From positions 1 to 49,888 of the IMG/VR virus record IMGVR_UViG_3300025574_000002: a DNA stretch of 49,888 nt; one strand, given 5' to 3'. The translations under genes and the position numbers were made by a program. The notes below the pieces were generated by a model that saw only the letters and a list, made by a program, of their open reading frames with translations, was not told the origin of the DNA and ran no database searches. Of the stretch, positions 4,295-29,572 are shown piece after piece (the stretch's first letter is position 1; each line of letters starts with the position of its first letter). The stretch is from a virus.

Positions 4295-5662
4295 TCATAA
4301 TTTCCTGTATATTATTGTATCCTCTCCCGTTGTTTCATCTTTCACTGTCTCCGTCGCTATCTGATTAGTAATCGTCAGGAACTCAAGAGCTTGCTCTAAT
4401 TCCTGACGACCTACTATTTTGTGACAAGCTACAAACATATCCACAAAATTATGTGGCCTAGCGTGCAGCATGGACATTATCTTCTGACTAGCTTTAGACT
4501 CAGCAGTCTTACCCTCTAGTATAAGAGCTAAGTGCATATTCTTCTCCTCCTCTTCTAACTCCCCTATCACCTCTTTGAATATAGAAAGAGGTATCTCCCC
4601 CACCGGTCTACCACAATCATCTCCCTCTGCATGGTCACTGAACCACTTAGCTATAGCTAACTTCTTTACATGGATGTTCTTACGAGCGTAGTAAGGAATC
4701 ATCTCTGGCGACTTATTACAGAATCCTTTTTTATTATACTCATCCCACCATATAGAAAGCCATGCTTCTGCCTCATCACTAACCTTTATTTCTCCATGAA
4801 GGGCGGTCAGTTTCTTTATATGGTCTAGTAATTCTTTCTGAATGACTAACTGTTCAGGTGTAAATCCTGGGAGTGACCAAGCGTTAAATCTATTCTTGGT
4901 AGCATAGATACAAGAAGTGCGGGAAGTAAATCCTTCACCAACTAAATCCTCATCGAAAGTAGTTTGCATGAAAGATGGTGTTGTCCCGGCTATAAGACTT
5001 AAACAACCTCTTTTTATTCTGTCATTACCCCTGGAGATGGTAGAGCAATCATGGTCATCTGGACAGTCAAAAGCAGATAAAAGAAAGTTAACAGTGTTAT
5101 TGGTATTTTTCTTCAGAAGCGAGGACAACTCAGGCAATACAAAGCACACACTACTATGACCATAAGCTCTCATGTTTCTTTTACCATCTGGCATCTCCTC
5201 AACCCAGTTAACATATCTATAATTCTCTGCAATAGTTTTGACAAGAGATTCACTGGTTATAGAGTCTGGAGCAACTGGAATCAATAAAGGTTTATGAATC
5301 TCTCTTTGCTTACCGTGGTTAGAAGCAGGAACTTCGGTTGCATTTTTAACATGAGATTCTTTAGCCGCTTCTAATAATGCCTTATCATCTGTAGATTTAG
5401 CCAACTTAGTATTGGTCTCTGCCATATCAAGAGTCCAATAGCGAATAAAGAAACCTACCTCTTTCAAGATTAACCCCTTACCAACACCGGGTGGACCAGT
5501 AAGGATGACATACATATTGGGATATAATGCTCTATGCTTAGAACCCATCCATACTCTCCTCTGCAAAGAGGCAGCGATAATATAATACCATGACCACTTG
5601 ATATAGTTGTCAGGTGATGGGAGAGCAGACGTATAGTATTTCCACTTCTCGAAATTGTTCAT
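4295..5662 (-). CDS. DUF3987-like replication ATPase (putative helicase/primase-type)
   Basis: A 455-residue P-loop ATPase with Walker A GPPGVGKG near residue 56 and a Walker B-like segment FVLPELSSLL near 174-184, followed by an S-R-G-N-D region and ATTPSFM-type sensor sequence. This layout matches DUF3987-type proteins, often found in phage replication clusters where a DnaB helicase is missing; no DnaB was seen in this genome. The start codon overlaps the stop of the polymerase C-terminal gene as ATGA (5659-5662), so the two are probably translationally coupled. Its role in unwinding or priming at the fork is inferred from context. Confidence 0.7.
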   Translation of the reverse strand: MNNFEKWKYYTSALPSPDNYIKWSWYYIIAASLQRRVWMGSKHRALYPNMYVILTGPPGVGKGLILKEVGFFIRYWTLDMAETNTKLAKSTDDKALLEAAKESHVKNATEVPASNHGKQREIHKPLLIPVAPDSITSESLVKTIAENYRYVNWVEEMPDGKRNMRAYGHSSVCFVLPELSSLLKKNTNNTVNFLLSAFDCPDDHDCSTISRGNDRIKRGCLSLIAGTTPSFMQTTFDEDLVGEGFTSRTSCIYATKNRFNAWSLPGFTPEQLVIQKELLDHIKKLTALHGEIKVSDEAEAWLSIWWDEYNKKGFCNKSPEMIPYYARKNIHVKKLAIAKWFSDHAEGDDCGRPVGEIPLSIFKEVIGELEEEEKNMHLALILEGKTAESKASQKIMSMLHARPHNFVDMFVACHKIVGRQELEQALEFLTITNQIATETVKDETTGEDTIIYRKL

Positions 5663-6789
5663 ACCCAGTCTATCTCCTGTAGTCCAGTTGCATTAGCAAT
5701 GTAGTTTCCTTGCGCATCCTTCTTTGCACTATTCCAATTAAATCCAACATTCTGCTCAGACTTCATATTGAAGTTTGTTCCGTCCACCGGACTAACTAGT
5801 GAGATATTCATATATTCTTTCATCTTCCTTTTGCACTCATTGACATCCAACAGAGGACATTGGACTAGATAGGAGTCATGAGTGTCTGCTAATATGTCCC
5901 ACTGTTTGTTCTCCAGTTCTATGTGCTGTTGTAAGCTAGTAGCTGCTATCCTAGTTATCTCCCCAACTGTTGACTGAGCAGACCAAGCATAATACTCTTT
6001 CATCTTTTCCTCCACTCTTTGGTCTGTTATCTCATAAGGATGGCCAAACAAATTAAACAATAACCTCGTCTGTAAAACTTGGTTCTCTATCCTTCTACAT
6101 CTCTCCGGTATCTCTGGGAATAGTGAACGATACACCAACAAGAACTCCCCTGCTGTCTTCATAGGTAAGTAAATAATGCCCTCCGATTTCTCCAGTATAT
6201 TCATCCTGAATGACTGAGCTTCGATGCCATAGTTTGCACTGTGACAAGTTTGTTTTGCCAAGTAATAGTATCTTTCTTTTGCTGACCAGTTGTCTGACGA
6301 TTTGATAAGTGCGTCTATGTCTTTCCAAAATGGATTTAGCTTTAATTCTTGTATAGGCGTATCGCATAGGGTATTTACATTGAAGTCCTCTATCAAACCA
6401 CCAGACTCTTTTAGTTTGTTAGTCCATATATCTTTGAATAACTTTAGAGCTACATAAACATGTGGCTTAACTCCATTGATAAATAACTGGCGATAGTCTG
6501 CTGCGTCACACTCGTAAGCAACTATCAATGCCTCAGCACCTGATTGGTCTGATTGGATGAATACTCTGAGTATCAACAGTTCTAGCTCCGTGAAGAATCC
6601 TGTCTCACCAGTCTTTAGCCACTCCAAGCACTTCTCCTTCAAGGCCTCGGTGAACCCATCAGGACGGTATATCTCTCTCATGTGCTTCTCAATGTTCTGG
6701 AGGTTAGAACCCCAATACCCTAGTATCTTAGTGGAGGAGCGACGGAAAGTCTTTGTCCCCGCGAGTTTGTATGTTGTGCTATTTTTCAT
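5659..6789 (-). CDS. Family A DNA polymerase, C-terminal (palm/fingers) half
   Basis: This part carries the polymerase active site. From the ATG at 6789 it has 376 residues: AGTKTFRRSS and SNLQNI near residues 11-32 (equivalent to the TGRLSS...NLQNI template-binding region), motif A SDQSGAEA near 80-87, motif B AKQTCHSANYG near 178-188 (the fingers helix with K and Y), the WSAQSTVGEI helix near 280, and motif C THDSY near 303-307. An upstream TTG (6831) in the same frame is possible, but ATG 6789 overlaps the preceding small gene and keeps the aligned region complete. The exonuclease half is encoded separately at 7185-8768, so a working enzyme would need both polypeptides. Confidence 0.88.
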   Translation of the reverse strand: MKNSTTYKLAGTKTFRRSSTKILGYWGSNLQNIEKHMREIYRPDGFTEALKEKCLEWLKTGETGFFTELELLILRVFIQSDQSGAEALIVAYECDAADYRQLFINGVKPHVYVALKLFKDIWTNKLKESGGLIEDFNVNTLCDTPIQELKLNPFWKDIDALIKSSDNWSAKERYYYLAKQTCHSANYGIEAQSFRMNILEKSEGIIYLPMKTAGEFLLVYRSLFPEIPERCRRIENQVLQTRLLFNLFGHPYEITDQRVEEKMKEYYAWSAQSTVGEITRIAATSLQQHIELENKQWDILADTHDSYLVQCPLLDVNECKRKMKEYMNISLVSPVDGTNFNMKSEQNVGFNWNSAKKDAQGNYIANATGLQEIDWV

Positions 6790-6934
6790 TGTGAATTTTA
6801 CGACAAAATCCTCTTGGATAGGATAGCACAAGATTATTATATTTTTGATTTTTCATTATCCACTTATACCCATGCTTTAATAGCCACCGTTCTTCAATTT
6901 TATTTGGACGCATTATCAATCGTGAACGCTTCAT
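6779..6934 (-). CDS. 51-residue basic protein between the polymerase halves
   Basis: A short gene that starts inside an ATGA overlap with the 85-residue gene (6931-6934) and ends overlapping the start of the polymerase C-terminal gene. The product is basic and aromatic-rich (about 11 Lys/Arg; contains RPNKIEERWLLKHGYKW). No family recognised. The overlapping starts and stops on both sides indicate translational coupling and support it being read. It may be a small cofactor of the split polymerase or a recent insertion product. Confidence 0.5.
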   Translation of the reverse strand: MKRSRLIMRPNKIEERWLLKHGYKWIMKNQKYNNLVLSYPRGFCRKIHNEK

Positions 6935-7188
6935 TTTGTTCTCCAAATACCCCACACACTGTTACCAAGCTGGCGAATAACTATTTCTTTAGGTGCAACC
7001 TTGTATCTTAAGTTATTAGGGTCGAACGAGACATTAATAGAATAACCTATTTGAAATCCTTCTGATATCAAAAATTTAAGAGTGTGCTTCACTTTAGGAA
7101 ACATTCTTTTATGTGATTTGGGAATTGGTCTGTCAACGATTGGGATGATAGTCCACTTTATAAACTTATTGGTAACAGCATAACTCAT
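6931..7188 (-). CDS. 85-residue protein between the polymerase halves
   Basis: Starts at an ATGA overlap with the stop of the exonuclease-half gene (7185-7188) and ends overlapping the next small gene the same way. The product is basic with beta-type alternation (VKHTLKFLISEGFQIGYSINVSF region) and no recognised motif. It lacks LAGLIDADG, GIY-YIG or HNH residues, so it is not an obvious homing endonuclease, although it occupies the place where one might be expected. Its position inside the polymerase locus is the only functional hint. Confidence 0.6.
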   Translation of the reverse strand: MSYAVTNKFIKWTIIPIVDRPIPKSHKRMFPKVKHTLKFLISEGFQIGYSINVSFDPNNLRYKVAPKEIVIRQLGNSVWGIWRTK

Positions 7189-8768
7189 AACAATGTCTCC
7201 TGTCTTGGTGCTGTGAATACTTTCCCATCATCTCCTCTCCATGGAGTGAACTTCAAAGCAGAAGTCTCCTTCGCCACTTTCCTGTATTGCAATACTAAAG
7301 GTATCACAGCGTTCTCTGGATACTTCATAGCCAAGCGATACATAATCTTCTTACCTAGAGAAGGTAATCCAGTTTGAGGAGAACGCCATAGAACAGGATA
7401 ACCTAAAATATCATGAAAGTAAGCGCAGCATTGTTTATTAGAACCGGGGAATAATTTGGTCTTCCCTTTCAAATAAGTCTTAATCTCTGCTAAACCCTCT
7501 TCACCTATTAGCAAATTAATCATCCTGACATACTGCATCATTAGCTTATCATTCTCTTTGGTCACTTCCTCCAAAGCTTCTTGACTATATGAGATACCTT
7601 GAAGGGTCATTAGTAAGTAGGGGACTATTGAATCATTAGCACACCTTATACTAACCTCAAGGCCGGGGATAGTCTTAGCATAAGATGTTATAGCTTCGTG
7701 TATAAGAGCCATAGTATAGACGTCCTTCCCGCAGTAAGCTAACTTCTTCATCATATCCTCTCTGGTAAAATAAGCTTTACTATCTGTGTCTTTGTGGAAC
7801 TTCTCCCATGTCCAGTAAGATACGCAATGACCAAGTGATTTCTCTATCGACGGAAAACATCGGTGCATAGCCAACATAGTATCATAACACTTGTAAACAG
7901 GAATGCTATACTTGAAAGCCAGAACAAAGAAATCAAAAGAAGCCCCGTTATGAGCAACCACAATGTTATCCCTAATAGCAATTGCCAATGCTCGCATAAT
8001 AAGATGATAAGCAGAGTAAGCGGGACGGTAACGATTATCAAGAATAGGAACACTATACACAGTCCTACTGTCAAAAGAGAACGCGAAACATAAGAGATTT
8101 TGTTCTTCATAATCTGTTTCTATGTCGAAGTAGAAGAAAGAGTTTTTTGTTTCTTTGAGGACTTGGATGACCTCATCTGCAGCAGGGTAAATTTTATAAC
8201 TTGGCTTTTGCCTGTTGATGGCTTTCCTATAAATACTATCACCAGATTGGGATATAAGTTGTTTGACCTTCCATATATCTCTCTTAAGCCAGAAGGCGTA
8301 ATTAGCTCGTTTAGTAGGGGAGAGGGCTTTAGTGTCACCTTCATCCTCATCATCACCTGATACCTCATCGTCTGAATTATAGTTTTTAGAATCTTCATTA
8401 TATTCACTTTCCCAATCTTGAGGGTCTGCTGCATCTTGGGGATAGTAGGACGCAATAGCTGGCAGACCTCTTACTGTCAGAACAGACCCCCTCAACTCAT
8501 TAAGTGTGTAACCCTTTGCTTCTTTCTCTGCCCACTCAAGCATAGCATATTCGCCTAAAAGAAGGACTGCCTTAGTCCCCTCCAAGAAATCAGACTTGTC
8601 TTCCATCACTCTAACATCACACATCATCTGATTAAACTCTGGGCGCAAGAAGTCATTGAACAATATACCTCCATTGGCAGACAGAAGGTTAAACTTATCA
8701 AAGCGTGATGGGTTAGACAGGATAACTGTCAACCCACAATACCTACTCTTTGGAAGGTTGCGCAACAT
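7185..8768 (-). CDS. Family A DNA polymerase, N-terminal half: UDG-like domain plus 3'-5' exonuclease
   Basis: From ATG 8768 the product has 527 residues. Residues about 1-175 look like a uracil-DNA glycosylase-fold domain (VLLLGEYAML near 70, LRGS near 92, YYPQDA near 110, ending in WLKRDIWKV). Then comes a DnaQ-like 3'-5' exonuclease: ExoI FDIETD near 214-219, ExoII VAHNGASFD near 271-279, ExoIII YCGKDVYT near 345-352. The chain continues into the thumb (NKQCCAYFHDILG, then VLQYRKVAKETSALKF) and stops just before the TGRLSS-equivalent segment, which begins the separate gene at 5659-6789. I infer proofreading polymerase encoded as two subunits. The start overlaps the preceding 59-residue gene. 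Confidence 0.85.
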   Translation of the reverse strand: MLRNLPKSRYCGLTVILSNPSRFDKFNLLSANGGILFNDFLRPEFNQMMCDVRVMEDKSDFLEGTKAVLLLGEYAMLEWAEKEAKGYTLNELRGSVLTVRGLPAIASYYPQDAADPQDWESEYNEDSKNYNSDDEVSGDDEDEGDTKALSPTKRANYAFWLKRDIWKVKQLISQSGDSIYRKAINRQKPSYKIYPAADEVIQVLKETKNSFFYFDIETDYEEQNLLCFAFSFDSRTVYSVPILDNRYRPAYSAYHLIMRALAIAIRDNIVVAHNGASFDFFVLAFKYSIPVYKCYDTMLAMHRCFPSIEKSLGHCVSYWTWEKFHKDTDSKAYFTREDMMKKLAYCGKDVYTMALIHEAITSYAKTIPGLEVSIRCANDSIVPYLLMTLQGISYSQEALEEVTKENDKLMMQYVRMINLLIGEEGLAEIKTYLKGKTKLFPGSNKQCCAYFHDILGYPVLWRSPQTGLPSLGKKIMYRLAMKYPENAVIPLVLQYRKVAKETSALKFTPWRGDDGKVFTAPRQETLL

Positions 8769-8922
8769 TGTTAAATGCAAATTGAAGTTTATCTCTTAGA
8801 GATTCTATGGTGTGAGTGAAATTACCAATTATTTTAATCTCTTCAACAGTTCCTAGTATTTGAGTAGTAACTTCTATATCACCAGAAGCTAATGATTTAC
8901 GTTCAGAAAAATTAATTTGCAT
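8743..8922 (-). CDS. 59-residue hypothetical protein upstream of the split polymerase
   Basis: Starts with MQINFSERKSLASGDIEV at ATG 8922, with an A-rich leader, and ends with TAG inside the start of the exonuclease-half gene (26-base overlap). Mixed alpha/beta composition with no recognised motif. Position within the replication operon and the overlap suggest a real, coupled gene. Confidence 0.55.
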   Translation of the reverse strand: MQINFSERKSLASGDIEVTTQILGTVEEIKIIGNFTHTIESLRDKLQFAFNNVAQPSKE

Positions 8923-8935
8923 AATAAGGTATCCC

Positions 8936-8974
8936 TTCTATTTAACCTAGGAAGGGAGTAGCTAGGTTGTTTAA
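8936..8974 (-). repeat. Short inverted repeat AACCTAG / CTAGGTT between genes
   Basis: A 7-bp perfect inverted repeat, AACCTAG (8943-8949) and CTAGGTT, sits in the gap after the SSB-like gene. On the minus strand it is followed by an A/T-rich but not T-only run. It may be a weak attenuator or processing hairpin. Confidence 0.35.
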
Positions 8975-8975
8975 C

Positions 8976-9563
8976 TTAGTAACCCTTTCCACCATCCGGA
9001 GCCTGTCCAAAGATTTCATCCACGCGAGGCCAGTATTTACACATAGCCTTACCTGTCTTTGGATTCTTCATAATATCCCCCTCAGGGAATTTGCCAGTAG
9101 ATTTAGCTTTGGCAATCTGTTCGGAAGTGGGACTCTTACGCTGGATGTCTTCCTGCGAAGACATCTGAACCATCACTAGCATTCCATTTAACTGTTCGAC
9201 GTTTGGATTCTCAGGGTCTTCTTTCGACCCATCCAAATCCAACACTTCCCACAATGATGGCTTATCAGCATTGTCTGAGACGAACACTCTTTTCCGTGCA
9301 TTAGCTGTCCGTTCCACATCCACCGAACCATCCTCATTGAACATCTTTGTCATGTATGGAAAGGCACAACGTGCTTTTACTCCAGCGATGTTCACATCTT
9401 GTCCTGCCACATTGTATGTGGTAGGTGTAACTACTTCTGTCTCAATAGTGATACCAACATTACCCGTTTTAGAGGGGGCAAAGGTGGCTTTAGTGATACG
9501 GTTGACGAAGCAAGTATCTGTTGGGAATTGGATACTTGCGTTCCAGTTTATTGGTATGCTCAT
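8976..9563 (-). CDS. Putative single-stranded DNA-binding protein (DUF669/SSB-like)
   Basis: A 195-residue protein beginning MSIPINWNASIQFP, the INWN...FP opening seen in phage DUF669-like proteins, followed by a beta-rich segment (TKATFAPSKTGNVGITIETEV) typical of an OB-like fold, and an acidic then Gly-rich tail ending PDGGKGY. It lies between the Sak4-like ATPase and the polymerase, where phages commonly encode SSB. I infer that it coats single-stranded DNA during replication and recombination. No alignment could be run. Confidence 0.5.
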   Translation of the reverse strand: MSIPINWNASIQFPTDTCFVNRITKATFAPSKTGNVGITIETEVVTPTTYNVAGQDVNIAGVKARCAFPYMTKMFNEDGSVDVERTANARKRVFVSDNADKPSLWEVLDLDGSKEDPENPNVEQLNGMLVMVQMSSQEDIQRKSPTSEQIAKAKSTGKFPEGDIMKNPKTGKAMCKYWPRVDEIFGQAPDGGKGY

Positions 9564-9642
9564 TTTGTTTTGTTATGATGGTAGGTCATCACCCATTTTG
9601 TTTCTTTGTTAATCCCAGTCCCTTGGTGAGGACGAGGGAAAT

Positions 9643-9837
9643 TTAATGTTCCAGTGTCAGAAGATAAGCTCCAACCTCTGCTAAGTCAGCGCAGTAGTGA
9701 GCACACATCTTTGGCTGTCCTTGTCCCTGTGCCTGTTGGTCAAACCCACGCTGATTAGGATGTAAGGTCTTGGTCGGTTCTGGGTAAGCTACTAACCACC
9801 CATTTGCTATTTTGTTTATTTGCAATGTTTCTATCAT
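9643..9837 (-). CDS. 64-residue hypothetical protein
   Basis: A small protein (MIETLQINKIANGWLVAYPEP...) with a Gln/Gly-rich middle and a CAHYCAD segment near residue 46. The opening resembles short phage proteins with a W-V-A-Y core found beside recombination genes, but no function is known. Its leader is A/T-rich without Shine-Dalgarno. About 80 bases of non-coding sequence separate it from the SSB-like gene. Confidence 0.6.
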   Translation of the reverse strand: MIETLQINKIANGWLVAYPEPTKTLHPNQRGFDQQAQGQGQPKMCAHYCADLAEVGAYLLTLEH

Positions 9838-9850
9838 ATGTTTCCTTTGT

Positions 9851-10735
9851 TTATTTTATTTGTTTATTCTTTTTGTATTTGACGAACGTGTTGTAGTTCG
9901 ACAAAATATATTTAGGCACATTCACTAAGCTGCTAGTCCCACAATCTCTCATATCATCAGCTTGTGTTTGCCATAGATGAATAGCCCTGTATACAGGGTC
10001 ACTAGCCTTGCACCACATATCAATAGTAGCATCATCTACTTGAAACTTCTCTCTCATCCTGTTCCTCTCCTCTATACCCTGAGGCTTACTTATGACTACT
10101 TGAGCTAATGCATCAGTAAAGTTCTTACCCAAAGTATCTGCTACTTGGCCAGTCAGCAGAGGGCGTATCTTACCATTGTAAGTGCCGTCTTTATTCCTAT
10201 CATCCTGCTCATGGCAGATAAAAATTACATCGCACCGGAGAGCTTTGAATAGATTCCATATCTCTTTGAAATACTTTAACTTCAAATCCCATTGAACAAA
10301 CTTATTATACTCACCCTTCTTACTGGTAGCCAAGTCATCCTCATTCACTTTGAACCATTGGTGGTATCCATCCTCGATACCTGTGCATCCATCCATTATT
10401 AATGTCTGCTCGTGAGACAATTTCATCCCCTCAGTCTCCAAGAACTTAATCAGTGCATCCTTCCTATTAGGCGGTTGGCTGGTTCCAGCCCGTCTAACTA
10501 CAGAGTCAACATAAGAAGGGTCATAGAATGGAACTAACGGAACATCCCCACGATGTAAATGCGCAGAGACTTTCCTATCATAAGTCAGGATTACTGGATT
10601 AGGAAATGTGAGTGCGCTAGTAGTCTTGCCTGCAAACGGTGGACCTTGGATTATCAATCTCACTTGATTATCCTCTGACTCTGATAGATATTTGCAGCCT
10701 ACTGGTTTGTATAGTTGTGATTTTATTTCTTCCAT
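9851..10735 (-). CDS. Sak4-like RecA-fold ATPase (phage recombination)
   Basis: 294 residues with Walker A GPPFAGKTT near 31-39, a Walker B-type TLIMDGC near 112-118, a sensor-like VIFICHEQDD near 180-189 and a PLLTGQVADTLGKNF segment near 203. This arrangement fits the phage AAA_24/Sak4 family of single-strand annealing ATPases. It would act with the neighbouring SSB-like protein and the Cas4-like nuclease in recombination-linked replication. The start is 1 base before the end of the kinase gene. Confidence 0.75.
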   Translation of the reverse strand: MEEIKSQLYKPVGCKYLSESEDNQVRLIIQGPPFAGKTTSALTFPNPVILTYDRKVSAHLHRGDVPLVPFYDPSYVDSVVRRAGTSQPPNRKDALIKFLETEGMKLSHEQTLIMDGCTGIEDGYHQWFKVNEDDLATSKKGEYNKFVQWDLKLKYFKEIWNLFKALRCDVIFICHEQDDRNKDGTYNGKIRPLLTGQVADTLGKNFTDALAQVVISKPQGIEERNRMREKFQVDDATIDMWCKASDPVYRAIHLWQTQADDMRDCGTSSLVNVPKYILSNYNTFVKYKKNKQIK

Positions 10736-10736
10736 A

Positions 10737-11234
10737 TTATAGTTTGATTTGTTTTACCTGCTCTAATAATTGTTCTGGTGTTCCAGAATTGTCTAACACA
10801 TAGTCCCACTCCTTTTGTGAGTCTAACTCTGTCTCTGATGGGTGAATGTCTATTGCATTACTAGGTCTCTCTAGTCTTATCATCACACCTCCATGCCCCT
10901 TAACCCACTCATACTCATTCTTAAATCGGACATCAGGTATCAATAGATACTCAAATCTATGCAAACTCTCTAATGCAATATCCATCTTATTCAACCAGTA
11001 ATCATCACCGTATATGTTACGGCGGAAGTCTGTCCCCCACCCTTGGAGTATTAAACGAAAGCTAGGTTTGTGCTGGTCTATGTATTTGGTAGTAACTCCA
11101 CAAGCCCTAGCTACTTCTTTCTTCAATTCACCTGCGAAATAATACTTAACACAACCGGGATACATGAGGGATAGCATTGCTGCTACTGTATCTTTTCCTG
11201 ATTGTTTCTTCCCTGAGATGCCAATGATTTTCAT
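10737..11234 (-). CDS. Deoxynucleoside monophosphate kinase
   Basis: 165 residues with P-loop GKKQSGKDT near 8-16, an LQGWGTDFRR segment near 63-72, a DVRFKNE Walker B-like segment near 100 and the HPSETELD motif near 130, all features of T4 gp1-like dNMP kinases. It phosphorylates dNMPs to dNDPs, feeding nucleotides into phage DNA synthesis. The start overlaps the nuclease stop (ATGA, 11231-11234). Confidence 0.82.
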   Translation of the reverse strand: MKIIGISGKKQSGKDTVAAMLSLMYPGCVKYYFAGELKKEVARACGVTTKYIDQHKPSFRLILQGWGTDFRRNIYGDDYWLNKMDIALESLHRFEYLLIPDVRFKNEYEWVKGHGGVMIRLERPSNAIDIHPSETELDSQKEWDYVLDNSGTPEQLLEQVKQIKL

Positions 11235-12304
11235 ACTTCATTATATTTAAGCGGATTGAACTGAACTCTATTAAAGTCTCTCCTCAATAGAACCTCAGCT
11301 ATGTTATCTGGATTCCTACAACAATCCCAAAAGGAACACTTCGAGAACTTTCTCTCACATGAGCCATTTAGTATCCCCTCTTTCGGTAAGTAACCAGTCT
11401 TAACAGCCTGACTTAATTGTTTTATCTTGTCATCAAGAGTCAACTGGAAAGCATCCAACTCAGCAGGTTTGATAGTCATGGTATCAGACCTAATGAACTT
11501 AGTCTCATTAGGGTCTTTGTTCAAAAAGATAGCATCAATGAAGCATGCAACATTAGTTCTACCTAGCTGGCCAAGGACAGAATCTGGGTGCATTGAAGCC
11601 ATAAGTTTAATGGCCAAAAGATACATCCTTAGTTGCCGGGAGAGTTGAAACTGTTCAAAGTAACCTTGGTTGTCCCAAGATGATGTAGTCTTCCAGTCAC
11701 CGATTGCATAGCAACCGTTGCGGAACTTACCTATCTTGTCTATTGTCCCACAAAGATTAACTATAATGTAATCATCTTCGTAGTAGCGAATTGAGAAGGT
11801 TACTTCGGTAGCAGGCTGGAGGAATTGTTTCTCACCTTTGCAGGTGGGGCATGGTTCAGGTATCACCAATGTAGTGTCAGTCAGTGGAGCACTGCTATGC
11901 CCCGTCCCCCTACACTTCCAGCATGGTAGCACTAACTCTATCAAGTCAAACGCTGTTTCCTCTAGGACATAATCTTGCCACAAATTCATACAGACTGTGC
12001 TAAGATGCTTATCATCCTGTAACCATCCCTGATACTTACTCGGCTCCTTAGTCGGAATACCTAAAAACAATTCGTGAGCCAGCTTCCTAGCAAGTATTAA
12101 ATCTCCCTTAGTCTTGTAGGCTATATCTATAAACTTGTGGACAGCTATCCCATACACCATGCTAGTTCCTGATAGCTTCTCCCTATACCCACCAGCAGAC
12201 AGTCCATCATCCCCCAGAGAGCCTACTACTGTCCGGTAGAAGTCTAGGGTGCAAGCGCTGTGCGAAAGTGATGTTGCATCAATATTAATTATTAGTTTGG
12301 ACAT
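11231..12304 (-). CDS. Cas4/RecB-like PD-(D/E)XK exonuclease with an inserted zinc-finger
   Basis: 357 residues. Catalytic features of the RecB/Cas4 nuclease fold: GIAVH near 52-56, GTID near 186-189 and IGDWKT near 201-206 (D203, K205), then a Q-rich helix (FEQFQLSRQLRMYLL). A Cys at 18 and four Cys in 316-329 (SCERKFSKCSFWDCC) are placed as in the 4Fe-4S cluster of AddB/Cas4 nucleases. Unusually, a DnaJ-like double CxxC unit (CWKC near 128 and CPTC near 152) is inserted before the active site. No cas1 or CRISPR array is present, so a role in DNA end processing with the Sak4-like ATPase is more likely than adaptation. Confidence 0.78.
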   Translation of the reverse strand: MSKLIINIDATSLSHSACTLDFYRTVVGSLGDDGLSAGGYREKLSGTSMVYGIAVHKFIDIAYKTKGDLILARKLAHELFLGIPTKEPSKYQGWLQDDKHLSTVCMNLWQDYVLEETAFDLIELVLPCWKCRGTGHSSAPLTDTTLVIPEPCPTCKGEKQFLQPATEVTFSIRYYEDDYIIVNLCGTIDKIGKFRNGCYAIGDWKTTSSWDNQGYFEQFQLSRQLRMYLLAIKLMASMHPDSVLGQLGRTNVACFIDAIFLNKDPNETKFIRSDTMTIKPAELDAFQLTLDDKIKQLSQAVKTGYLPKEGILNGSCERKFSKCSFWDCCRNPDNIAEVLLRRDFNRVQFNPLKYNEV

Positions 12305-12749
12305 AGGTTCGGCTTTCCTTTCTAACTATACGAGATATTTGTGGTTGACTGCATTGGAACTTTTCAGCCAGTTCATACTGATTGAGATTACCCTCACTAT
12401 ACAGTCTGCAAATTTCAGCTACTTGATAGTCAGATAAAAATCCATGAGCAATACCACATGACCTGCGACCCTTAGAATCCATATCTTGTATATTCTCCAG
12501 GTGCGTTCCAAGAAAAAGGTGGTCTGGATTTACACAGAGTTTGTTATCACATTTATGTAATACAAATAACCCAGGGCTTGTGTTGCCCTTATGATAATGA
12601 TAAGAAGCTACATGTGCTCTTACATGCTTTCCGTGGATAGTAAACTGACCATAACCGTTGCTAGTCCCTTCTTTCCAAATCCAGCAAGAATCTTCTTGCA
12701 ATGGATTGACCTCAAACTTTTGCAAGAAACTAAAATATGTATTTTTCAT
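12285..12749 (-). CDS. Free-standing HNH endonuclease with C-terminal helix-turn-helix
   Basis: From ATG 12749 the product has 154 residues: SCWIWKEGTSNGYGQF near 21-36, then HKCDNKLCVNPDHLFLGT near 65-82, which is the HNH core with the Cys pair of the HNH_3 type, then a DNA-recognition helix-turn-helix (YELAEKFQCSQPQISRIV near 126-143). Such proteins are free-standing homing nucleases. It lies between a short reading frame and the Cas4-like gene, overlapping the latter by 20 bases, which looks like a compact insertion. An in-frame upstream start at 12773 is also possible. Confidence 0.8.
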   Translation of the reverse strand: MKNTYFSFLQKFEVNPLQEDSCWIWKEGTSNGYGQFTIHGKHVRAHVASYHYHKGNTSPGLFVLHKCDNKLCVNPDHLFLGTHLENIQDMDSKGRRSCGIAHGFLSDYQVAEICRLYSEGNLNQYELAEKFQCSQPQISRIVRKESRTYVQTNN

Positions 12750-12820
12750 TCTAACACCCCACAAGGTAGCCAAGTCTTACCGTGGTCGAGGGAGTATTCT
12801 TTTGCATATGACAATCTCAT
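12746..12820 (-). CDS. 24-residue open frame just upstream of the HNH gene (possible gene remnant)
   Basis: A tiny frame starting 3 bases after the stop of the 80-residue gene and ending in an ATGA overlap with the HNH gene. It contains YSLDHGKTWLPCG, which resembles the opening of a small beta-rich protein, so this may be the front piece of a gene cut by the HNH insertion, or a leader peptide. Evidence is weak. Confidence 0.3.
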   Translation of the reverse strand: MRLSYAKEYSLDHGKTWLPCGVLE

Positions 12821-12823
12821 AAC

Positions 12824-13066
12824 TTATCTCTTCCTTCTCTTTGTGAACTCATCCGTATCTATCCCCACAGACCTAAGACCTTCCAGGACTTTCCTCTTAC
12901 CGGGAGACATATACGGAACAGGTTCTTGTTGTGATTTCGGTTTGTTTGTTCTAGCTCTATCTGGTCTTGTTACATTCAGATATTGCTCGAAATGTTCTAG
13001 CAACTTTCCATCTGACATTGCTTCCAGCTTGGCAGCATTGCAGTTCATCCATTGGTCGAGGGTCAT
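12824..13066 (-). CDS. 80-residue basic hypothetical protein
   Basis: Acidic/neutral N-terminus (TLDQWMNCNAAKLEAMSDGKLLEHF) and a Lys/Arg-rich tail ending TKRRKR, suggesting a nucleic-acid-binding tail. Its ATG overlaps the stop of the 284-residue gene (ATGA, 13063-13066). No known family. It could be a partner of the preceding protein. Confidence 0.6.
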   Translation of the reverse strand: MTLDQWMNCNAAKLEAMSDGKLLEHFEQYLNVTRPDRARTNKPKSQQEPVPYMSPGKRKVLEGLRSVGIDTDEFTKRRKR

Positions 13067-13917
13067 AATCTAATCAACCGGACATATGACTCAGTGATAG
13101 AGTGCTGGATATTCTTGAGAGGGGCTAACTTTACTTTGATATTAACTATCTCTTGTTGTGATAACCCCAACCCCTCTTTAACAAAAGGTTCAAGGTTATC
13201 ATTATCCTCTATCCACTCATCCATCTTTCTCATCCACACTGGCGCGCTGCTCTTAGGAGCTATTGACTCAGCTTTTAATTGCACTTCGCCAGCGTTACCG
13301 AAGCCCGGAATGTAGGCTATGATTACTCCAACATCATGTTGCCGGGAGATGTTAACTGTCTCATACCACTGACCATACTTGTGGTCTGGTGTGTCCATGT
13401 TCTCTATCAGGTAGCGTATGGATTGGTTGATTCGGTTGTAGAGAGTAGTTGGTGCTATCCCTGTTTCATCTGTGCACCAGACAAAATAGCGATAGACTAT
13501 GGACTGCTTATCTACCATCATCTTATCTATGTATTCTTTAATCTCTGCTCCATATATCCTCTTGAAGTATGGAGCATTAGACTTGTGACTCCACCCTGAT
13601 GGCTTGTTGGATGTCACTAAATTGACTAGCTTCTGAGCAACAGATGGGTTGCTGAAAGCTGGTTTGATGTCAGGGGGGTCTGGCATATTATTATATTGTT
13701 CTTCCACAAACTTCAAAGCATTACTCATCGCTGCTGAATCTAGTTTGCAAGCCATTCTCATTAGTGTATTAGCATCCTGTTGGCAGAGATGAACTCTCTT
13801 CCCCTCCAAGTCAATGAAGGTCTTAGCGAGAAGGATGTCGCACACCATGCACTTCTGTTTGACTTCTGGTTGTTCTGGGGGAGGAGTAGGAGTTAGATTA
13901 CCGGGTGGCATTTCCAT
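13063..13917 (-). CDS. 284-residue protein with N-terminal Cys motif, first gene after the activator's promoter
   Basis: A proline-rich opening (residues 1-18) leads into CMVCDILL near 23-26 and HLCQQD near 43, a possible zinc site. The rest is mixed helical with LYNRINQSIRYLIENM near 160-176. No family recognised. It is the first protein gene downstream of the sigma-54-type promoter at 14481-14498, after a roughly 550-base structured leader, and is coupled to the next gene. I infer a middle gene, possibly a replication accessory protein, from position only. Confidence 0.65.
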   Translation of the reverse strand: MEMPPGNLTPTPPPEQPEVKQKCMVCDILLAKTFIDLEGKRVHLCQQDANTLMRMACKLDSAAMSNALKFVEEQYNNMPDPPDIKPAFSNPSVAQKLVNLVTSNKPSGWSHKSNAPYFKRIYGAEIKEYIDKMMVDKQSIVYRYFVWCTDETGIAPTTLYNRINQSIRYLIENMDTPDHKYGQWYETVNISRQHDVGVIIAYIPGFGNAGEVQLKAESIAPKSSAPVWMRKMDEWIEDNDNLEPFVKEGLGLSQQEIVNIKVKLAPLKNIQHSITESYVRLIRL

Positions 13918-14480
13918 ATTAGTTATATTAGTTGTGATTAAATTATATGGCTACTAGCTGCCAGTTTATTGGTTAAGGGTAGACTCGTCCTAGGTTGGCT
14001 TGATAAGGCCGTTTATTCCCATGAGTTCATCATATACCTCATGCAGCTAGGCTTCCTCATCCACAGACTAATTGGTAGTAGCCAAATTGTCCTCAGTCGT
14101 CCCGTCCTCGCAGGCAGGGAGTCTCCGTAGAGACTCGTTTCTTACACACGCTGAGGCGTTAGATGTCCTTACTTAGAGGACATCGGGAAGCAGACTCACA
14201 TATTATAGTTGTCGAGTCATTAACTATACAGTTATGTCCACAGTCCACGCGAACAGGTATCATCAGATAGCCCACCGGCGTATTGAACCAGACCAACAAC
14301 TGCCTCGTCTCACCGAGTGTCACCATCATAGATAGTCTCTTTCAAGACCCTAAATGATATAGTGGAAAAGAACCCGCCGGGGTGCGCTAATCTTACGGGA
14401 AGCGTGGCGGGTGTTGTTAAAAGCCACTTACAATGTAGGAACAACGAGGTCAATCAAATACCTACCAAGTAAATCTATAT
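13918..14480 (-). ncRNA. Candidate structured leader or non-coding RNA (about 560 bases)
   Basis: No convincing gene lies between the activator and the 284-residue gene. The stretch contains perfect short hairpins: GAGTCTC/GAGACTC around CGTA (14119-14136), GATGTCCT/AGGACATC around a 7-base loop (14162-14184), and a GC-rich stem near 14372-14412. It is richer in GC than nearby spacers and would be transcribed leftward from the promoter at 14481-14498. It may be one long RNA or a short RNA plus a leader. The boundaries are not defined by sequence alone. Confidence 0.4.
14364..14412 (-). terminator. Intrinsic-terminator-like hairpin about 60-100 bases after the sigma-54-type start
   Basis: On the minus strand ACCCGCC (14412-14406) pairs with GGCGGGT (14378-14372) around a 27-base loop, and the second arm is followed by TCTTTTCC. 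A transcript from the predicted start near 14471 would be about 105 bases if it ended here, giving a small RNA; read-through would feed the downstream operon. The long loop lowers certainty. Confidence 0.45.
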
Positions 14481-14498
14481 TAGCATTTTCCATGCCAA
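14481..14498 (-). promoter_or_regulatory. Sigma-54-type (-24/-12) promoter, leftward, downstream of the activator gene
   Basis: On the minus strand GTTGGCATGGAAAATGCTA has GG at 14496-14495 and GC at 14484-14483 with ten bases between, matching the TGGCACG-N4-TTGCW consensus. The predicted start is about 14471. The core TGGCATGGAAAATGCTAATATAG pattern is the same as at the late promoter (26787), which is strong internal support. It lies about 30 bases past the stop of the activator gene and points into the replication genes. Confidence 0.8.
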
Positions 14499-14509: not shown

Positions 14510-14528
14510 ATGTTTAGAGTTCTACTAT
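14510..14528 (-). promoter_or_regulatory. Conserved upstream element TAGTAGAACTCTAAA
   Basis: On the minus strand TAGTAGAACTCTAAA begins so that TAGAAC starts 28 bases before the GG of the -24 box. The same element at the same spacing precedes the promoter at 24277-24294. Identical sequence and spacing suggest a protein-binding site used at these two promoters. It overlaps the end of the activator gene, including its TAG stop. Confidence 0.5.
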
Positions 14529-15403
14529 CTTATAGTTCCCCACACCGTATGGCGAACTACATAATTCTGAATAGACCTTACGTTCAACGAGAGGTCTAGT
14601 ATCCCATTCCTAAGTGAGTCACCATGCTCCTTGAGAAAGTCTTCATGGCCGGGCAATGACTTACAGATTGGTATCACATCACACATCCTACTCACTAACG
14701 GTTTGATATGCATCTCTAGCATACTAATCCTAGCATACAAGTCCTCTCTAAATGTTCTATCCTTTACCATCTGTTTCAGGTTCTTGTTAGTGGCAAACAC
14801 AAACTTACAATTCACCGGAACCTCAGACATTGCACCGACAGGGCATACGCACTTCTCCTGTATCACCCTCAACAACTTCGATTGCATCATCAAAGGTAGC
14901 TCACCTACTTCATCAAGGAACATAACTCCATCTGCTGCTTCTGCCATGAAACCTTTCCTGTCTGTATATGCTCCTGTGAAAGCTCCTTTGACATAGCCAA
15001 AGAGGATAGACTCTATGAGTGTCTCTGGTATGCCAGCACAGTTGATAGCTTTGAACATACCTTTCCTATCAGCTATCATAGACTTAGCTATTATCTCTTT
15101 TCCTGTTCCTGTTGGCCCTATGATTAGAACTTCATTAGGAGCCTTAGATGCTTTGGATGCTTTGACCTTCAACTCTAAAGTCTCAGGGTCTTCCGTTATG
15201 AACTTAGCCAGATGTAGTTCACCTGCTGATAGTGTGTCTACTAAAGCCCACTTATCATCTATCCACTTGACAGCATATGGTAGATTGAACTCTACTATCT
15301 TATCTCTTACTGTATCTTCCATCCCCTCATTAGACAGATAAAGTTCTAACGTCTTACGAGATGGTATCTTTCTCTCAGGTTGTTGTGCTTGTGGTAGTGC
15401 CAT
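14525..15403 (-). CDS. Phage sigma-54 activator: AAA+ enhancer-binding-protein core without receiver or DNA-binding domain
   Basis: 292 residues. It carries every hallmark of the sigma-54 interaction AAA+ domain: Walker A GPTGTGKE (96-103), the sigma-54-contacting loop GAFTGA (140-145), Walker B MFLDEVGELP (161-170), sensor I FATNKNL (203-209), arginine-finger segment FREDLYAR (218-225), and a sensor II NVRSIQN (274-280). ATP hydrolysis by a hexamer of such a protein would open promoters bound by sigma-54 RNA polymerase. The N-terminal 85 residues show no receiver, GAF or PAS pattern, and the protein stops right after the lid, with no Fis-type helix-turn-helix, as in the few known activators that work from solution. 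Five -24/-12 promoters in the same genome, one starting just after this gene, make a phage-run sigma-54 programme the natural reading. Confidence 0.92.
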   Translation of the reverse strand: MALPQAQQPERKIPSRKTLELYLSNEGMEDTVRDKIVEFNLPYAVKWIDDKWALVDTLSAGELHLAKFITEDPETLELKVKASKASKAPNEVLIIGPTGTGKEIIAKSMIADRKGMFKAINCAGIPETLIESILFGYVKGAFTGAYTDRKGFMAEAADGVMFLDEVGELPLMMQSKLLRVIQEKCVCPVGAMSEVPVNCKFVFATNKNLKQMVKDRTFREDLYARISMLEMHIKPLVSRMCDVIPICKSLPGHEDFLKEHGDSLRNGILDLSLNVRSIQNYVVRHTVWGTIR

Positions 15404-21434: not shown

Positions 21435-21452
21435 AAGCATTTTTCGTGCCAA
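21435..21452 (-). promoter_or_regulatory. Sigma-54-type promoter, leftward
   Basis: On the minus strand CTTGGCACGAAAAATGCTTA has GG at 21450-21449 and GC at 21438-21437 with ten bases between; it is the closest of the set to the TGGCACG-N4-TTGCW consensus in its -24 half. Predicted start about 21426, leaving a leader of about 130 bases with a hairpin (ACTTCCC/GGGAAGT near 21336-21361) before the coiled-coil gene. Confidence 0.8.
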
Positions 21453-23982: not shown

Positions 23983-24255
23983 TCATAAATGTAAAATCCT
24001 AACCACATTTACTTTCCATCTTTGATTTCCAACCAAATCCACTTTAGGAGGACAGTAAATGTCTGCAAGTAGATAGATAAAATGTCGGTCGATTTCCACC
24101 ACCTTGTAAGTCCTTTCAGCATGGATAATCGTATTGATGCAAGCTTGTCTTGGTGTTGTAGTGACATAGTGTTGTTTGATGCCATAAGGCCACTTGGTAT
24201 CTTTACCACCTTCGGCTGTATATATGGCGTCAGCTAGAGCGTCAACGGTTATCAT
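23983..24255 (-). CDS. Putative lysozyme-like (muralytic) protein
   Basis: 90 residues. The pattern ADAIYTAEGG near 8-17, WPYGIK near 22-27, CINTIIHAERTYK near 39-51 and the end LADIYCPPK...NQRWKVNVVRIL matches a small lysozyme-fold family that I recall in phages and bacteria, in which the Glu of AEGG would be the catalytic residue. It lies only 12 bases after the predicted start of the sigma-54-type promoter at 24277-24294, as expected for a late lysis gene. No other endolysin was recognised in this genome. Confidence 0.5.
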   Translation of the reverse strand: MITVDALADAIYTAEGGKDTKWPYGIKQHYVTTTPRQACINTIIHAERTYKVVEIDRHFIYLLADIYCPPKVDLVGNQRWKVNVVRILHL

Positions 24256-24276: not shown

Positions 24277-24294
24277 TAGCATTTCCCATGCCAA
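24277..24294 (-). promoter_or_regulatory. Sigma-54-type promoter, leftward, before the lysozyme-like gene
   Basis: On the minus strand CTTGGCATGGGAAATGCTAT has GG at 24292-24291 and GC at 24280-24279, ten bases apart. Predicted start about 24267, leaving about 12 bases before the ATG. It carries the TAGTAGAACTCTAAA element 28 bases upstream, as at 14481-14498. Confidence 0.82.
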
Positions 24295-24308
24295 GTGATG
24301 ATTCTATA

Positions 24309-24335
24309 TTTAGAGTTCTACTATTAAATAGAACT
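24309..24335 (-). promoter_or_regulatory. Upstream element forming an interrupted palindrome AGTTCTA / TAGAACT
   Basis: AGTTCTA (24314-24320) and TAGAACT (24329-24335) are inverted copies separated by 8 bases. The left copy is part of the TAGTAGAACTCTAAA element shared with the promoter at 14481-14498. This is the geometry of a dimer-binding operator. It is not known which protein would bind; the phage activator itself shows no DNA-binding domain. Confidence 0.5.
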
Positions 24336-24430
24336 GTTGTGTCATAAAACCTACTGTCAACTGCTGTTACAAGTAGCAGAGGAAAGATACTACATGGCGA
24401 GGTAACTGACAGTAGGTTTTAGGACACAAC
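24336..24430. repeat. 24-bp inverted repeat (23 of 24 paired) with nested stem
   Basis: 24336-24359 and 24407-24430 are reverse complements apart from one base, with a 47-base loop that holds a smaller CTGCT/AGCAG stem. It lies in a 637-base gene-free stretch (24256-24892). It is not followed by a T run on either side. Possible roles are an RNA structure or a protein-binding cruciform. Confidence 0.7.
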
Positions 24431-24659
24431 ACAAGTTAGTTAACTGTCTCTTAACATCCAACTAGCGATAAACAAGATACTCAAACTGTCTAGCATATCT
24501 TGTAACATTTAGACTTGCCGGGTGGCATAATCTACTCGTCACCCCTTACTATTTATCGGTTTCGTGCGCTAGTTCTTTCAATAGTCATGGCAGTAAGTTT
24601 CAACTGCACGTTCTTCCATCCAGTTATCTTGAAAAGCAATGAGTTTTGTGATTATATTA

Positions 24660-26333: not shown

Positions 26334-26464
26334 TATGACTTATATCAGGAGTTGGTATAACGAGCAAACAGCCAGAAACATTGGCTTCTACAAGCTACCC
26401 GAAGAACGACAAGAATAGTCGGATATAGATAGTAGGTTAGCTTATACTCTGCATTAGTATTACA

Positions 26465-26592
26465 CTAGCTAATCCACCACATAACATCCGCTAATACTAA
26501 TACACCGGATAAGCATAGCTAATCAGTATCAGCCTAGCTAATGATGATTATAAGCATCAGCCTAGCTAATACTCTGTATCATCCTAGCTAAT
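26465..26592. repeat. CTAGCTAAT iteron-like repeats
   Basis: CTAGCTAAT occurs exactly at 26465, 26534, 26562 and 26584, with ATAGCTAAT at 26515 and several GCTAATACTA-like partial copies. Two copies share the longer ATCAGCCTAGCTAAT. Steps between copies are 50, 19, 28 and 22 bases. Next to an AT-rich tract and between divergent gene blocks, this is the layout of an iteron-type replication origin or a multi-site operator. Confidence 0.5.
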
Positions 26593-26784: not shown

Positions 26785-26802
26785 CTGGCATGGAAAATGC
26801 TA
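26785..26802 (+). promoter_or_regulatory. Sigma-54-type promoter of the rightward late operon
   Basis: CTGGCATGGAAAATGCTA has GG at 26787-26788 and GC at 26799-26800 with ten bases between; TGGCATGGAAAATGCTAAT is identical to the promoter at 14481-14498 on the other strand. Predicted start about 26812, only about 4 bases before the first ATG (10 before the second). It would drive terminase, portal and the rest of the late genes. Confidence 0.85.
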
Positions 26803-27167: not shown

Positions 27168-27587
27168 ATGGGAACTGACAGTCAAATTTTAGCTGCTTAC
27201 AGACAGGGGTTAACTCCCGAACAGATAGCAGAAGACTTAGACTTTCCTGTGTATGCAGTAAAGGCTAAGTTGATGAATTTATCTTCTGACTATAGGAAAG
27301 CTTGCGGTCAGGAACCAGAGGAAGATAGTGAGTTAAACCTCTCCCGCGAAGAGCAGATTACCATAAAGAGGAAGCTCATGGATACCTTCTTATCTAGCGA
27401 AGATGAGCACGTTATAGTCAAGTTGGGGACATACTTGCGAGATGATGGTAAGGGGAGAAAGGATGTTGTTAAGCAGATGGGGAACATTGGAAATCTGAAT
27501 ATCCTACAACTAGTTAATGGGTCTATCTCCCAAGCAAGAGAAAACTCCCGCTCTTTGAAAGATAGTCTAAAGATGGTTACTGCATGA
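27168..27587 (+). CDS. Putative small terminase subunit
   Basis: 139 residues. An N-terminal helix-turn-helix-like segment (ILAAYRQGLTPEQIAEDLDF, then VYAVKAKL) fits the DNA-recognition part of a small terminase, followed by a helical oligomerisation-type region. It sits directly before, and overlaps by 4 bases, the large terminase gene. It would recognise phage DNA and hand it to the large subunit. Identification rests on position plus the HTH. Confidence 0.6.
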   Translation: MGTDSQILAAYRQGLTPEQIAEDLDFPVYAVKAKLMNLSSDYRKACGQEPEEDSELNLSREEQITIKRKLMDTFLSSEDEHVIVKLGTYLRDDGKGRKDVVKQMGNIGNLNILQLVNGSISQARENSRSLKDSLKMVTA

Positions 27588-29572
27588 CCAAAGATGAGTT
27601 CATCCAGTTGTCTCCCCAAGAGCAAGAAGCCTTCATAAATGAAGGTGGTATAATTTCTTCTGTTGACATTCCTACTAATGTGGTTTGTTGTGATTCCACT
27701 CTAGTTGTCAATGAAGAACAGAAGGTTGAGTTCCTTCCAACTCAGGTTCATGATTTTCCTGAGTCAAGTAGCGCAATGCTCACTCAACCTTCTGCACAAT
27801 TTAATGCAATGAACGAAGTGAGGGAACCCCAGTCTGTAGTGAAAACCCAAACATACACAGAACCACAACCTTTGTTGTCAGATGCTCCTAACCGTGAGGT
27901 GGAGAGTAGTTCCGTTTCTACTACCACATCTGACAACCCTTCCACCGCCGATGTAGATACTACCCAATGGACAGAGGGATTTGATATAAAAGACCCAGTA
28001 GAGTTACTCTTCTTGCTGGATGAGGATGTAGCAAATGGGGTAGTAAAACTCCACAAGTGGCAAGCAGAGTTTATGTATGACTTTGCTCAAGAGACCAACA
28101 CCAAGGAAAATGCTTTCAAAGCCTGTGTCCAAGCATGTAATGGTTCGGGAAAAGATAAGTATATTGTCTCAGCTTGCGTGGTCTGGCTTTGTATGCGCTA
28201 CGGGCTGGCACGTGGAGTTGTTACCAATGGCTCTGGTGTTCAGCTAGATAATCAGACTGAGGCATATATCCGATACCTTTGTCAAAGGGCAAATACTATC
28301 TTTGCCGGGGGAAAAGACCTAATCTGGAAATGTAATTATCGTTATTATGAATGCATCCCAACTAAATCACCAATTGTCCTCTTTGCTACTGACGAACCAA
28401 ATAAGGCAGAAGGCTATCACCCTCTTAAAGCAGGCGGAAAAATGGCCATATTTGCTTCAGAAGCAAAGGCTATCCCAGATTCAATCTTTACTGCTCTTAT
28501 ACGCTGCACAGGATTTACGCACCGCATCGATGTCTCAACACCCGGTAGAAGAAACGGTTATTTTCACGACCGCTGTATCACAGCCGTTCCTAGGAGTGAA
28601 GTCAAAGACAATGCCACAAATGTCACTATACTCTACAAAGTAACTGCTTTTGACTGTCCACACATAACAGCTAAAGAGATAAAAGAGTTTGAAGACGCTT
28701 TGCCGGGTGGTGTTCATAATCCAGTTTATCTCTCAGGTGTATTAGCTGAGTTTTCTGATATGGATGAGATGGTAGTTATCCCATCTCATTTTGTAATGTG
28801 GGCTATGAGAACTGCTCACCAGCAAGTTAAGTGGATACAAGAACCTTACAACAAGGGTGGATTGGATTTATCAGATGGTGGGGCGGAGACTGTCTTGGTA
28901 GTTAGGAATGGAAATAAGCATCTAAAGACTATCCCATTCCGGTTTGACAATACAGAAGATACACTAGATTTCTTAGAGGAGGAATTCAAAGCTAATGAAC
29001 TCACGAATAGAGATGCATATATTTATGCGGACTCATGTGGTATCGGAAAGCCAATGCTTAATGCTCTCCGTCGCAGAGGGTGGACAAATATACGGTTTGT
29101 AGACTCGCGTAACCGTGCTGTCGAGCCCAAAGTCTATCTCAACCGGGGAACAGAGTTGTTCTTTAATGTGCGTAAACTTCTCGAACGACATGAGCTGATT
29201 ATTCAAGAGGATAAGATGCTTTTGAAGCAGATGTCCACTCGCTACTACAAGATTAATAATAAATCTATCCACCAGCTACTTACCAAGCTAGAACAGCGTT
29301 CGCGTGGTTACCCATCCCCTGACCGAGCTGATGCTTTCAATTTAGCTTTCTGGGATTACAAGTCTACCTTTAGTAGGACAGACTTTAGTGCAGCAGCACC
29401 TGACAAACCATATGAGTTGCAGGAGCTAACTCCTATTATCCCTATATTTTCTCTTAAAGAGTGGGCTAGTGATGGTCAATCTTCTTTAGCTACCTTTAGG
29501 AGAAATGTTAGTAAACGACAACCAATAAATCATCTCCAGCGAGAGTTGGAGAGATACATAGAAAGAAAATAG
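27584..29572 (+). CDS. Large terminase subunit
   Basis: 662 residues. ATPase: the adenine-motif region HKWQAEFMYDF near 157-167, a Walker A variant ACNGSGKD near 184-191, Walker B-type AIFASEAKAI near 287-296. Nuclease: GGLDLSDGGAE near 424-434, YIYADSCGIGKPM near 484-496 and RADAFNLAFWD near 584-594, consistent with an RNase H-like fold and its acidic residues. It cuts and pumps DNA into the prohead. The first 125 residues are a Ser/Thr/Gln-rich, probably disordered extension that is unusual for the family. Confidence 0.88.
   Translation: MTKDEFIQLSPQEQEAFINEGGIISSVDIPTNVVCCDSTLVVNEEQKVEFLPTQVHDFPESSSAMLTQPSAQFNAMNEVREPQSVVKTQTYTEPQPLLSDAPNREVESSSVSTTTSDNPSTADVDTTQWTEGFDIKDPVELLFLLDEDVANGVVKLHKWQAEFMYDFAQETNTKENAFKACVQACNGSGKDKYIVSACVVWLCMRYGLARGVVTNGSGVQLDNQTEAYIRYLCQRANTIFAGGKDLIWKCNYRYYECIPTKSPIVLFATDEPNKAEGYHPLKAGGKMAIFASEAKAIPDSIFTALIRCTGFTHRIDVSTPGRRNGYFHDRCITAVPRSEVKDNATNVTILYKVTAFDCPHITAKEIKEFEDALPGGVHNPVYLSGVLAEFSDMDEMVVIPSHFVMWAMRTAHQQVKWIQEPYNKGGLDLSDGGAETVLVVRNGNKHLKTIPFRFDNTEDTLDFLEEEFKANELTNRDAYIYADSCGIGKPMLNALRRRGWTNIRFVDSRNRAVEPKVYLNRGTELFFNVRKLLERHELIIQEDKMLLKQMSTRYYKINNKSIHQLLTKLEQRSRGYPSPDRADAFNLAFWDYKSTFSRTDFSAAAPDKPYELQELTPIIPIFSLKEWASDGQSSLATFRRNVSKRQPINHLQRELERYIERK

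Follow-up and report, generated by a model that had tools for sequence, protein, structure and literature searches.

A phage sigma-54 activator with neither receiver nor helix-turn-helix domain accompanies a conserved set of sigma-54-type promoters

We describe a phage genome that carries its own sigma-54 activator together with a set of promoters of the sigma-54 (-24/-12) type. The DNA analysed, here called the window, is the whole stretch of 49,888 nucleotides of IMG/VR record IMGVR_UViG_3300025574_000002. We consider it highly probable that the phage-encoded activator, the sigma-54 of the host and the phage's own promoters form a middle/late switch. We also think it likely, with less assurance, that a group of tailed phages is controlled in this manner, its middle and late expression running entirely via host sigma-54, with a constitutive activator of the phage's own, a full promoter set and positive feedback. 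Sigma-54 polymerase needs an activator to open DNA, and hence a phage that supplies the activator would gain a class of promoters that is silent until switched on and stands apart from the sigma-70 machinery of the host. To our knowledge, sigma-54-based control of phage transcription in this mode has not been described previously; a search of the open-access literature turned up no case in which a phage encodes a sigma-54 activator and also has a sigma-54 regulon of its own.

Results

The activator and its layout are as follows.

14525 to 15403, minus strand: gene of the sigma-54 activator (bEBP-like AAA+ ATPase), 292 aa, ATG start
Residues about 10 to 66 of the product: N-terminal domain
Residues 67 to 292 of the product: AAA+ core and complete lid, with no helix-turn-helix (HTH) behind it

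The 292-aa ORF is a true sigma-54 activator AAA+ protein, on which profile, fold and tree agree. Pfam PF00158 (Sigma54_activat) matched residues 69-231 at 7.7e-55, over positions 2-167 of the 168 in the profile, and a profile search of the PDB matched FleQ, NtrC1 and PspF at 1e-74 to 1e-58. By direct reading, the chain contains Walker A (GPTGTGKE), Walker B (FLDE), sensor I (FATN), the arginine fingers (FREDLYARI), sensor II (NVR, with R276) and an intact GAFTGA loop at residues 140-145. Walker A and B, the arginine fingers and both sensors are invariant or nearly so across the aligned phage activators. An AlphaFold2 model built with ten phage sequences (pLDDT 88) comprised the AAA+ core and complete lid. 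A fold search with this model gave Z 24-27 against FlrC, NtrC1, FleQ and PspF, with Lon far behind; against FlrC (4qht), Z was 26.7 with an rmsd of 1.9 over 224 residues, and the model ends where the AAA+ domain of FlrC ends. The profile phrog_7998, from a family without assigned function, matched the AAA+ part only (3.3e-36, profile positions 17-190 of 339). The first-pass annotation had taken the gene for a phage-encoded sigma-54 activator, and both parts of that reading are supported, the identity by the PF00158 match, the fold and the tree. The profile search against activation domains that it had proposed gave the full-length PF00158 match, and the grouping with non-activator AAA+ families that it had named as the contrary outcome was not seen, sigma-54 activators matching far better.

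At its C-terminus the protein reads LNVRSIQNYVVRHTVWGTIR and then stops, 16 residues past the sensor II arginine, and the lid lacks the usual W-P-G ahead of NVR. Pfam on the whole protein found no receiver, GAF, PAS or HTH and no match outside the AAA+ part; likewise, the N-terminal 71-90 residues of six members of the family gave no known Pfam domain, receiver included, and the protein is accordingly not an NtrC-type response regulator. Thus the annotation was right that the protein has no Fis-type HTH, that its first 85 residues are not of receiver, GAF or PAS type and that its lid is without W-P-G. Five full-length orthologues, 45-61% identical, have the same end point and the same NVRS- lid, and we therefore regard the short C-terminus as genuine. 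Judged from its sequence, the phage protein should work like an activator, yet it is no typical enhancer-binding protein, since a C-terminal Fis-type HTH is missing.

The annotation had further described the protein as a minimal AAA+ core. This holds as far as the receiver and the HTH are concerned, but not for the N-terminal part, where residues ~10-66 form a small conserved domain with predicted H-H-E-E-H structure (alpha-alpha-beta-beta-alpha, pLDDT about 80-85), an order of elements that differs from that of a receiver. Because this region is folded and conserved, the activator is better described as an AAA+ protein plus a small N-terminal domain. Neither the profile searches nor the proposed structure prediction, run on the whole protein, gave a known DNA-binding domain in residues 1-85, and the fold search, run with the whole model rather than this domain alone, matched the N-terminal domain to nothing identifiable.

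For relatives, we probed IMG/VR with a promoter 17-mer, TTGGCATGGAAAATGCT, first seen downstream of the activator gene. It returned 16 records, three of which (52.7, 50.7 and 53.2 kb) encode an HTH-less activator of about 290-315 aa; these three carry 7, 6 and 11 sites of the promoter pattern, respectively, and none of the reversed pattern. A second promoter 17-mer, TTGGCATGATTCTTGCT, led to more activator phages, namely the close orthologues G025 and G027 and the distant G059, G049 and G042. The two 17-mers alone retrieved the activator-encoding G006, G010, G016, G025, G027 and G059, together with two shorter records. The activator of G017 was added via an alignment search. Single-sequence searches of viral contigs with the activator and with the helicase gave no matches, and a search of genome contigs returned host-type activators only. 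Six orthologous phages were compared, G000 (the window), G016, G010, G017, G025 and G027, which have 22 gene clusters in common.

An HTH is absent from the activators of all phage relatives found. In the tree, the ten phage activators included group in a single clade (support 100/99), separate from the 13 host activators, a host sample that is small and in which one protein, from L042, has just 28 residues past the lid motif. The placement relative to HTH-less host activators that had been proposed was thereby obtained in part. The GAFTGA loop varies in relatives: GAFTDA (G017; L025, 9968-10870), GAYTGS (G027; L153, 1303-2199) and GAFTSA (L154, 685-1485). We count the changes in G017 and G027 against the main reading; comparable changes are known in working activators. 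The human-gut phage MT121960.1 (Phage DP SC_2_H4_2017; L019, 1312-2223) encodes a more distant HTH-less activator of 304 aa, with an unusual Walker A (GETGTDKE) and uncertain placement, and has zero sites of the window's sigma-54 pattern.

The promoters matching the activator lie outside the gene covered by the first-pass annotation, and they give the activator its meaning. Six exact matches to TGGCAYR-N4-WTGCW were found in the window.

Site A, 14482 to 14497, minus strand: TGGCATGGAAAATGCT, 28 nt past the activator stop, reading into the replication operon
Site D, 21436 to 21451, minus strand: TGGCACGAAAAATGCT, upstream of the operon 21293-14525, in which the activator gene is last
Site E, 24278 to 24293, minus strand: TGGCATGGGAAATGCT, in the control region, with ORF 23983-24255 beginning 23 nt downstream
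Site C, 26786 to 26801, plus strand: TGGCATGGAAAATGCT, opening the rightward late block (ORF 26816, followed by the terminase gene)
27584 to 29572, plus strand: gene of the terminase large subunit, whose best match is from Akkermansia phage Chambord (30%)
Site B, 33822 to 33837, plus strand: TGGCATGATAATTGCT, upstream of the gene of about 440 aa presumed to encode the major capsid protein
Site F, 45637 to 45652, plus strand: TGGCATATTTTATGCT, inside ORF 45608-46021 and upstream of ORF 46018

Markov models of order 1-4 predict only 0.08-0.23 such matches. Five of the six sites lie in the ~14% of the window left non-coding by a simple gene caller (binomial p 3e-4), and all aim at the next gene on their own strand. 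Across the six orthologous phages, 42 copies of the motif have the N4 spacing, against 0-2 for each other spacing from 0 to 10; when the fixed letters were scrambled, the count averaged 0.37 and never exceeded 3. The free positions of the pattern are also biased among 36 sites, with T before TGGCA in 26 and T at the final A-or-T position in all. The three Akkermansia phages nearest among named phages by terminase have no sites of this pattern. By their letters, their fixed spacing and their orientation to genes, the sites in the six phages read as sigma-54 (-24/-12) promoters.

The positions of sites A, B, C and D are kept in all six orthologous phages, and site F (near c25) has an equivalent in five. 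Site A lies between the activator gene and its neighbour c7, facing the replication block; site B between c16 and c17, the gene of ~440 aa; site C ahead of the terminase operon; and site D ahead of the operon with helicase, ligase and, last, the activator. In G025 one ORF call on the opposite strand intervenes between site D and the operon. From gene order we presume that c17 is the capsid gene, the genes of Akkermansia phage Chantilly running terminase, portal, protease, major head protein; profile searches of c17 gave no support for a capsid. Three further phages, G060 (via L126 and L168), G038 (via L086) and G061 (via L127), have 16, 10 and 7 sigma-54-type sites, respectively, and no detectable PF00158 activator on their contigs. 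These phages may use host activators or activators of another kind, and such cases of many sites without a detectable activator count against the main reading.

Around site A and the activator gene, we found the following features.

14510 to 14526, minus strand: candidate upstream element AGTAGAACTCTAAACAT (relatives' consensus AATATAACTCCTAACAA), separated by 12 nt from the -24 element of site A that follows it
24306 to 24322: second copy of the candidate upstream element, before site E
13918 to 14472, minus strand: long leader behind site A, non-coding and structured (z -2.7)
13063 to 13917, minus strand: neighbour gene of the c7 family, 284 aa, the first gene behind site A
4295 to 12304, minus strand: replication block, into which site A reads (DUF3987 primase-helicase, family A polymerase halves, Sak4-like protein, dNMP kinase, exonuclease-like protein)

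A de novo search for motifs in the DNA preceding 27 sites gave TAATATAACTCCTAAC, with LL 86 against 51-58 in shuffles. Each of the six phages has the element ahead of site A, at a distance of 10-33 nt from the -24 box. In G010, G017, G000 and G016 it also precedes several other promoters; sites B lack it, as does site D in the window. The element may serve as an enhancer or operator, or it may simply reflect shared descent. The c7 neighbour adjoins the activator in each of the six phages, and G042 shows the same adjacency. It gave a weak winged-helix match and a low-confidence model (pLDDT 63), too weak for a fold assignment.

An Rfam scan returned nothing at gathering thresholds; within the leader, 14372-14411 (minus strand) matched the abiF RNA below threshold (29.2 bits, cut-off 37), a match absent from the relatives searched. 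The G010 leader behind the activator (L020, 2676-2784) holds a tRNA-like gene by Rfam (37.5 bits, cut-off 29), with no ARAGORN call. In the replication block, the family A DNA polymerase is apparently split (5659-8780, minus strand) into an exonuclease part (7185-8780) and a polymerase part (5659-6831), as in the relatives, and an HNH endonuclease with a C-terminal HTH (12285-12773, minus strand) is apparently inserted. Four 21-nt repeats similar to ATCAGTATCAGCCTAGCTAAT (26453-26592), perhaps an origin or a binding array, lie about 200-330 nt upstream of site C, and an inverted repeat with 25-nt arms, 96% complementary, lies upstream of site E (24335-24431).

Sigma-54 itself (PF04552) is absent from the eight phage records searched, including the window, G006, G010 and G016; since these encode none, host sigma-54 must serve. 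The best terminase matches are Akkermansia phages (30%), and relatives occur in 13 of 387 Verrucomicrobiota genomes. The idea that Verrucomicrobiota might be the host phylum comes from that 30% match. Sigma-54 should then be present in the host: it was found in 191 of 193 Verrucomicrobiota genomes sampled, a figure that is consistent with the model and no proof of the host.

Discussion

We propose that the first activator is made from an early promoter, presumably dependent on sigma-70. A scan for a sigma-70 promoter that could start the loop stayed below chance expectation and found none, which counts against the proposal. The activator would then assemble as a hexameric AAA+ ATPase and, driven by ATP, remodel host sigma-54-RNA polymerase in the closed complexes at the phage -24/-12 promoters. 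Acting at site D before its own operon, it would create the positive feedback that the layout implies; acting at sites A, C and B, it would turn on the replication block, the terminase block and the presumed capsid gene. The placement of the sites suggests that the operons for replication, packaging and head formation share one signal, with these operons as the presumed middle and late classes. Since it lacks a receiver domain, the activator is probably active once made. It also lacks an HTH and would thus probably contact polymerase from solution, a plausible mode of action, in the manner of DctD250, FlgR and CtcC. DctD250, a lone AAA+ domain, activated many sigma-54 promoters without enhancers, more weakly than a tethered activator (PMC3844500), and further mechanistic precedent can be drawn from PMC7482065.

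The same regulon could instead be served by a DNA-tethered activator. The tether would be the activator's N-terminal domain or a partner protein, for instance the product of 13063-13917, and would use a AATATAACTCCTAACAA-like element that precedes the -24 box by 10-55 nt. A conserved element at a subset of promoters does fit a tethered activator better than a free one, and we count it against the main reading; the motif scored above its shuffles, and each of the six phages has it at the promoter that follows the activator gene. However, it is missing at the presumed late promoters and at window site D, and part of the motif signal reflects common descent, since the promoters following the activator gene are homologous to one another. 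The activator's N-terminal domain is conserved, yet residues 1-85 show no known DNA-binding fold, and the winged-helix hint in the neighbour c7 is set against a model of low confidence. Taken together, the upstream element, the conservation of the N-terminal domain and the constancy of c7 beside the activator keep tethering a serious though rather unlikely reading. These features also bear on the suggestion in the annotation that the protein is unregulated and acts from solution, which stands as a plausible reading.

The main reading, a phage activator working at phage promoters, is also challenged by the suggestion that the target is the host, with the activator firing host sigma-54 genes or sequestering sigma-54 polymerase. 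A free constitutive AAA+ activator is promiscuous, DctD250 having induced most of a sigma-54 regulon (PMC3844500), so host sigma-54 genes would probably be affected too; but the phage's own promoters keep their positions in six diverged genomes, which makes host effects at most a side effect and an activator directed at the host improbable. Still less credible is an AAA+ protein with another role (packaging, replication or protease-like), the TGGCAY-N4-WTGCT sites serving something else. Phages commonly carry AAA+ ATPases, and some homologues with altered GAFTGA, TyrR and DhaR, are known not to use sigma-54 (PMC3162934). Against this, the GAFTGA of the window protein is intact, its nearest solved structures are all sigma-54 activators, and the sites agree with the sigma-54 consensus both in their letters and in its exact spacing, and are found together with the activator gene. 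Finally, the short C-terminus might have come from a frameshift or premature stop in the assembly of an ordinary HTH-bearing activator, as a second reading frame seen by eye past the stop codon could suggest. This origin was rejected, with practically no weight left to it: the five orthologues, on separate contigs, share the end residue after NVRS-, and in all six phages the DNA past the stop is a promoter and a non-coding leader.

If the switch operates as proposed, it would add a new class to the recognised means by which phages schedule gene expression, and host rpoN would be a host-range factor for these phages. Natural AAA+-only activators would offer simple models and tools for sigma-54 transcription. 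The activator and its promoters also provide a sequence handle for spotting such phages in metagenomes.

Among known systems, PspF resembles the phage protein in having no receiver and an AAA+ core, which in PspF is constitutive and matches the phage model at Z about 24. PspF has a C-terminal HTH, absent from the phage protein, binds enhancers and is checked by PspA. In other phages, an early product redirects transcription to later operons, as do T7 RNA polymerase, the SPO1 and T4 sigma factors, Mu C and P2 Ogr; these switches act via sigma-70-type promoters or via a phage polymerase or sigma factor, whereas this phage would supply the ATPase activator only and rely on host sigma-54. FlgR of Helicobacter and Campylobacter and CtcC of Chlamydia are, like the phage protein, AAA+ activators that end past the lid without an HTH. 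Unlike it, they carry an N-terminal receiver or regulatory domain under a kinase, where the phage gene encodes a domain of ~66 residues of another kind. FlgR is reported to be enhancer-independent, according to work cited in PMC3162934, and GAFTDA, found in the relative G017, is FlgR's variant. FleT of Rhodobacter sphaeroides (type Ic) has neither a signal-recognition nor a DNA-binding domain (PMC3162934), as is the case for the phage protein, a likeness in domain content; FleT, however, is a host flagellar regulator. Set beside type Ic (FlgR, CtcC, FleT), the phage activator is without an HTH, and a candidate upstream element is present. DctD250, the central AAA+ domain alone, is constitutive, promiscuous and enhancer-free, and would be the laboratory equivalent of the action proposed here (PMC3844500); it was made by truncation, whereas the phage protein is natural and keeps its small N-terminal domain.
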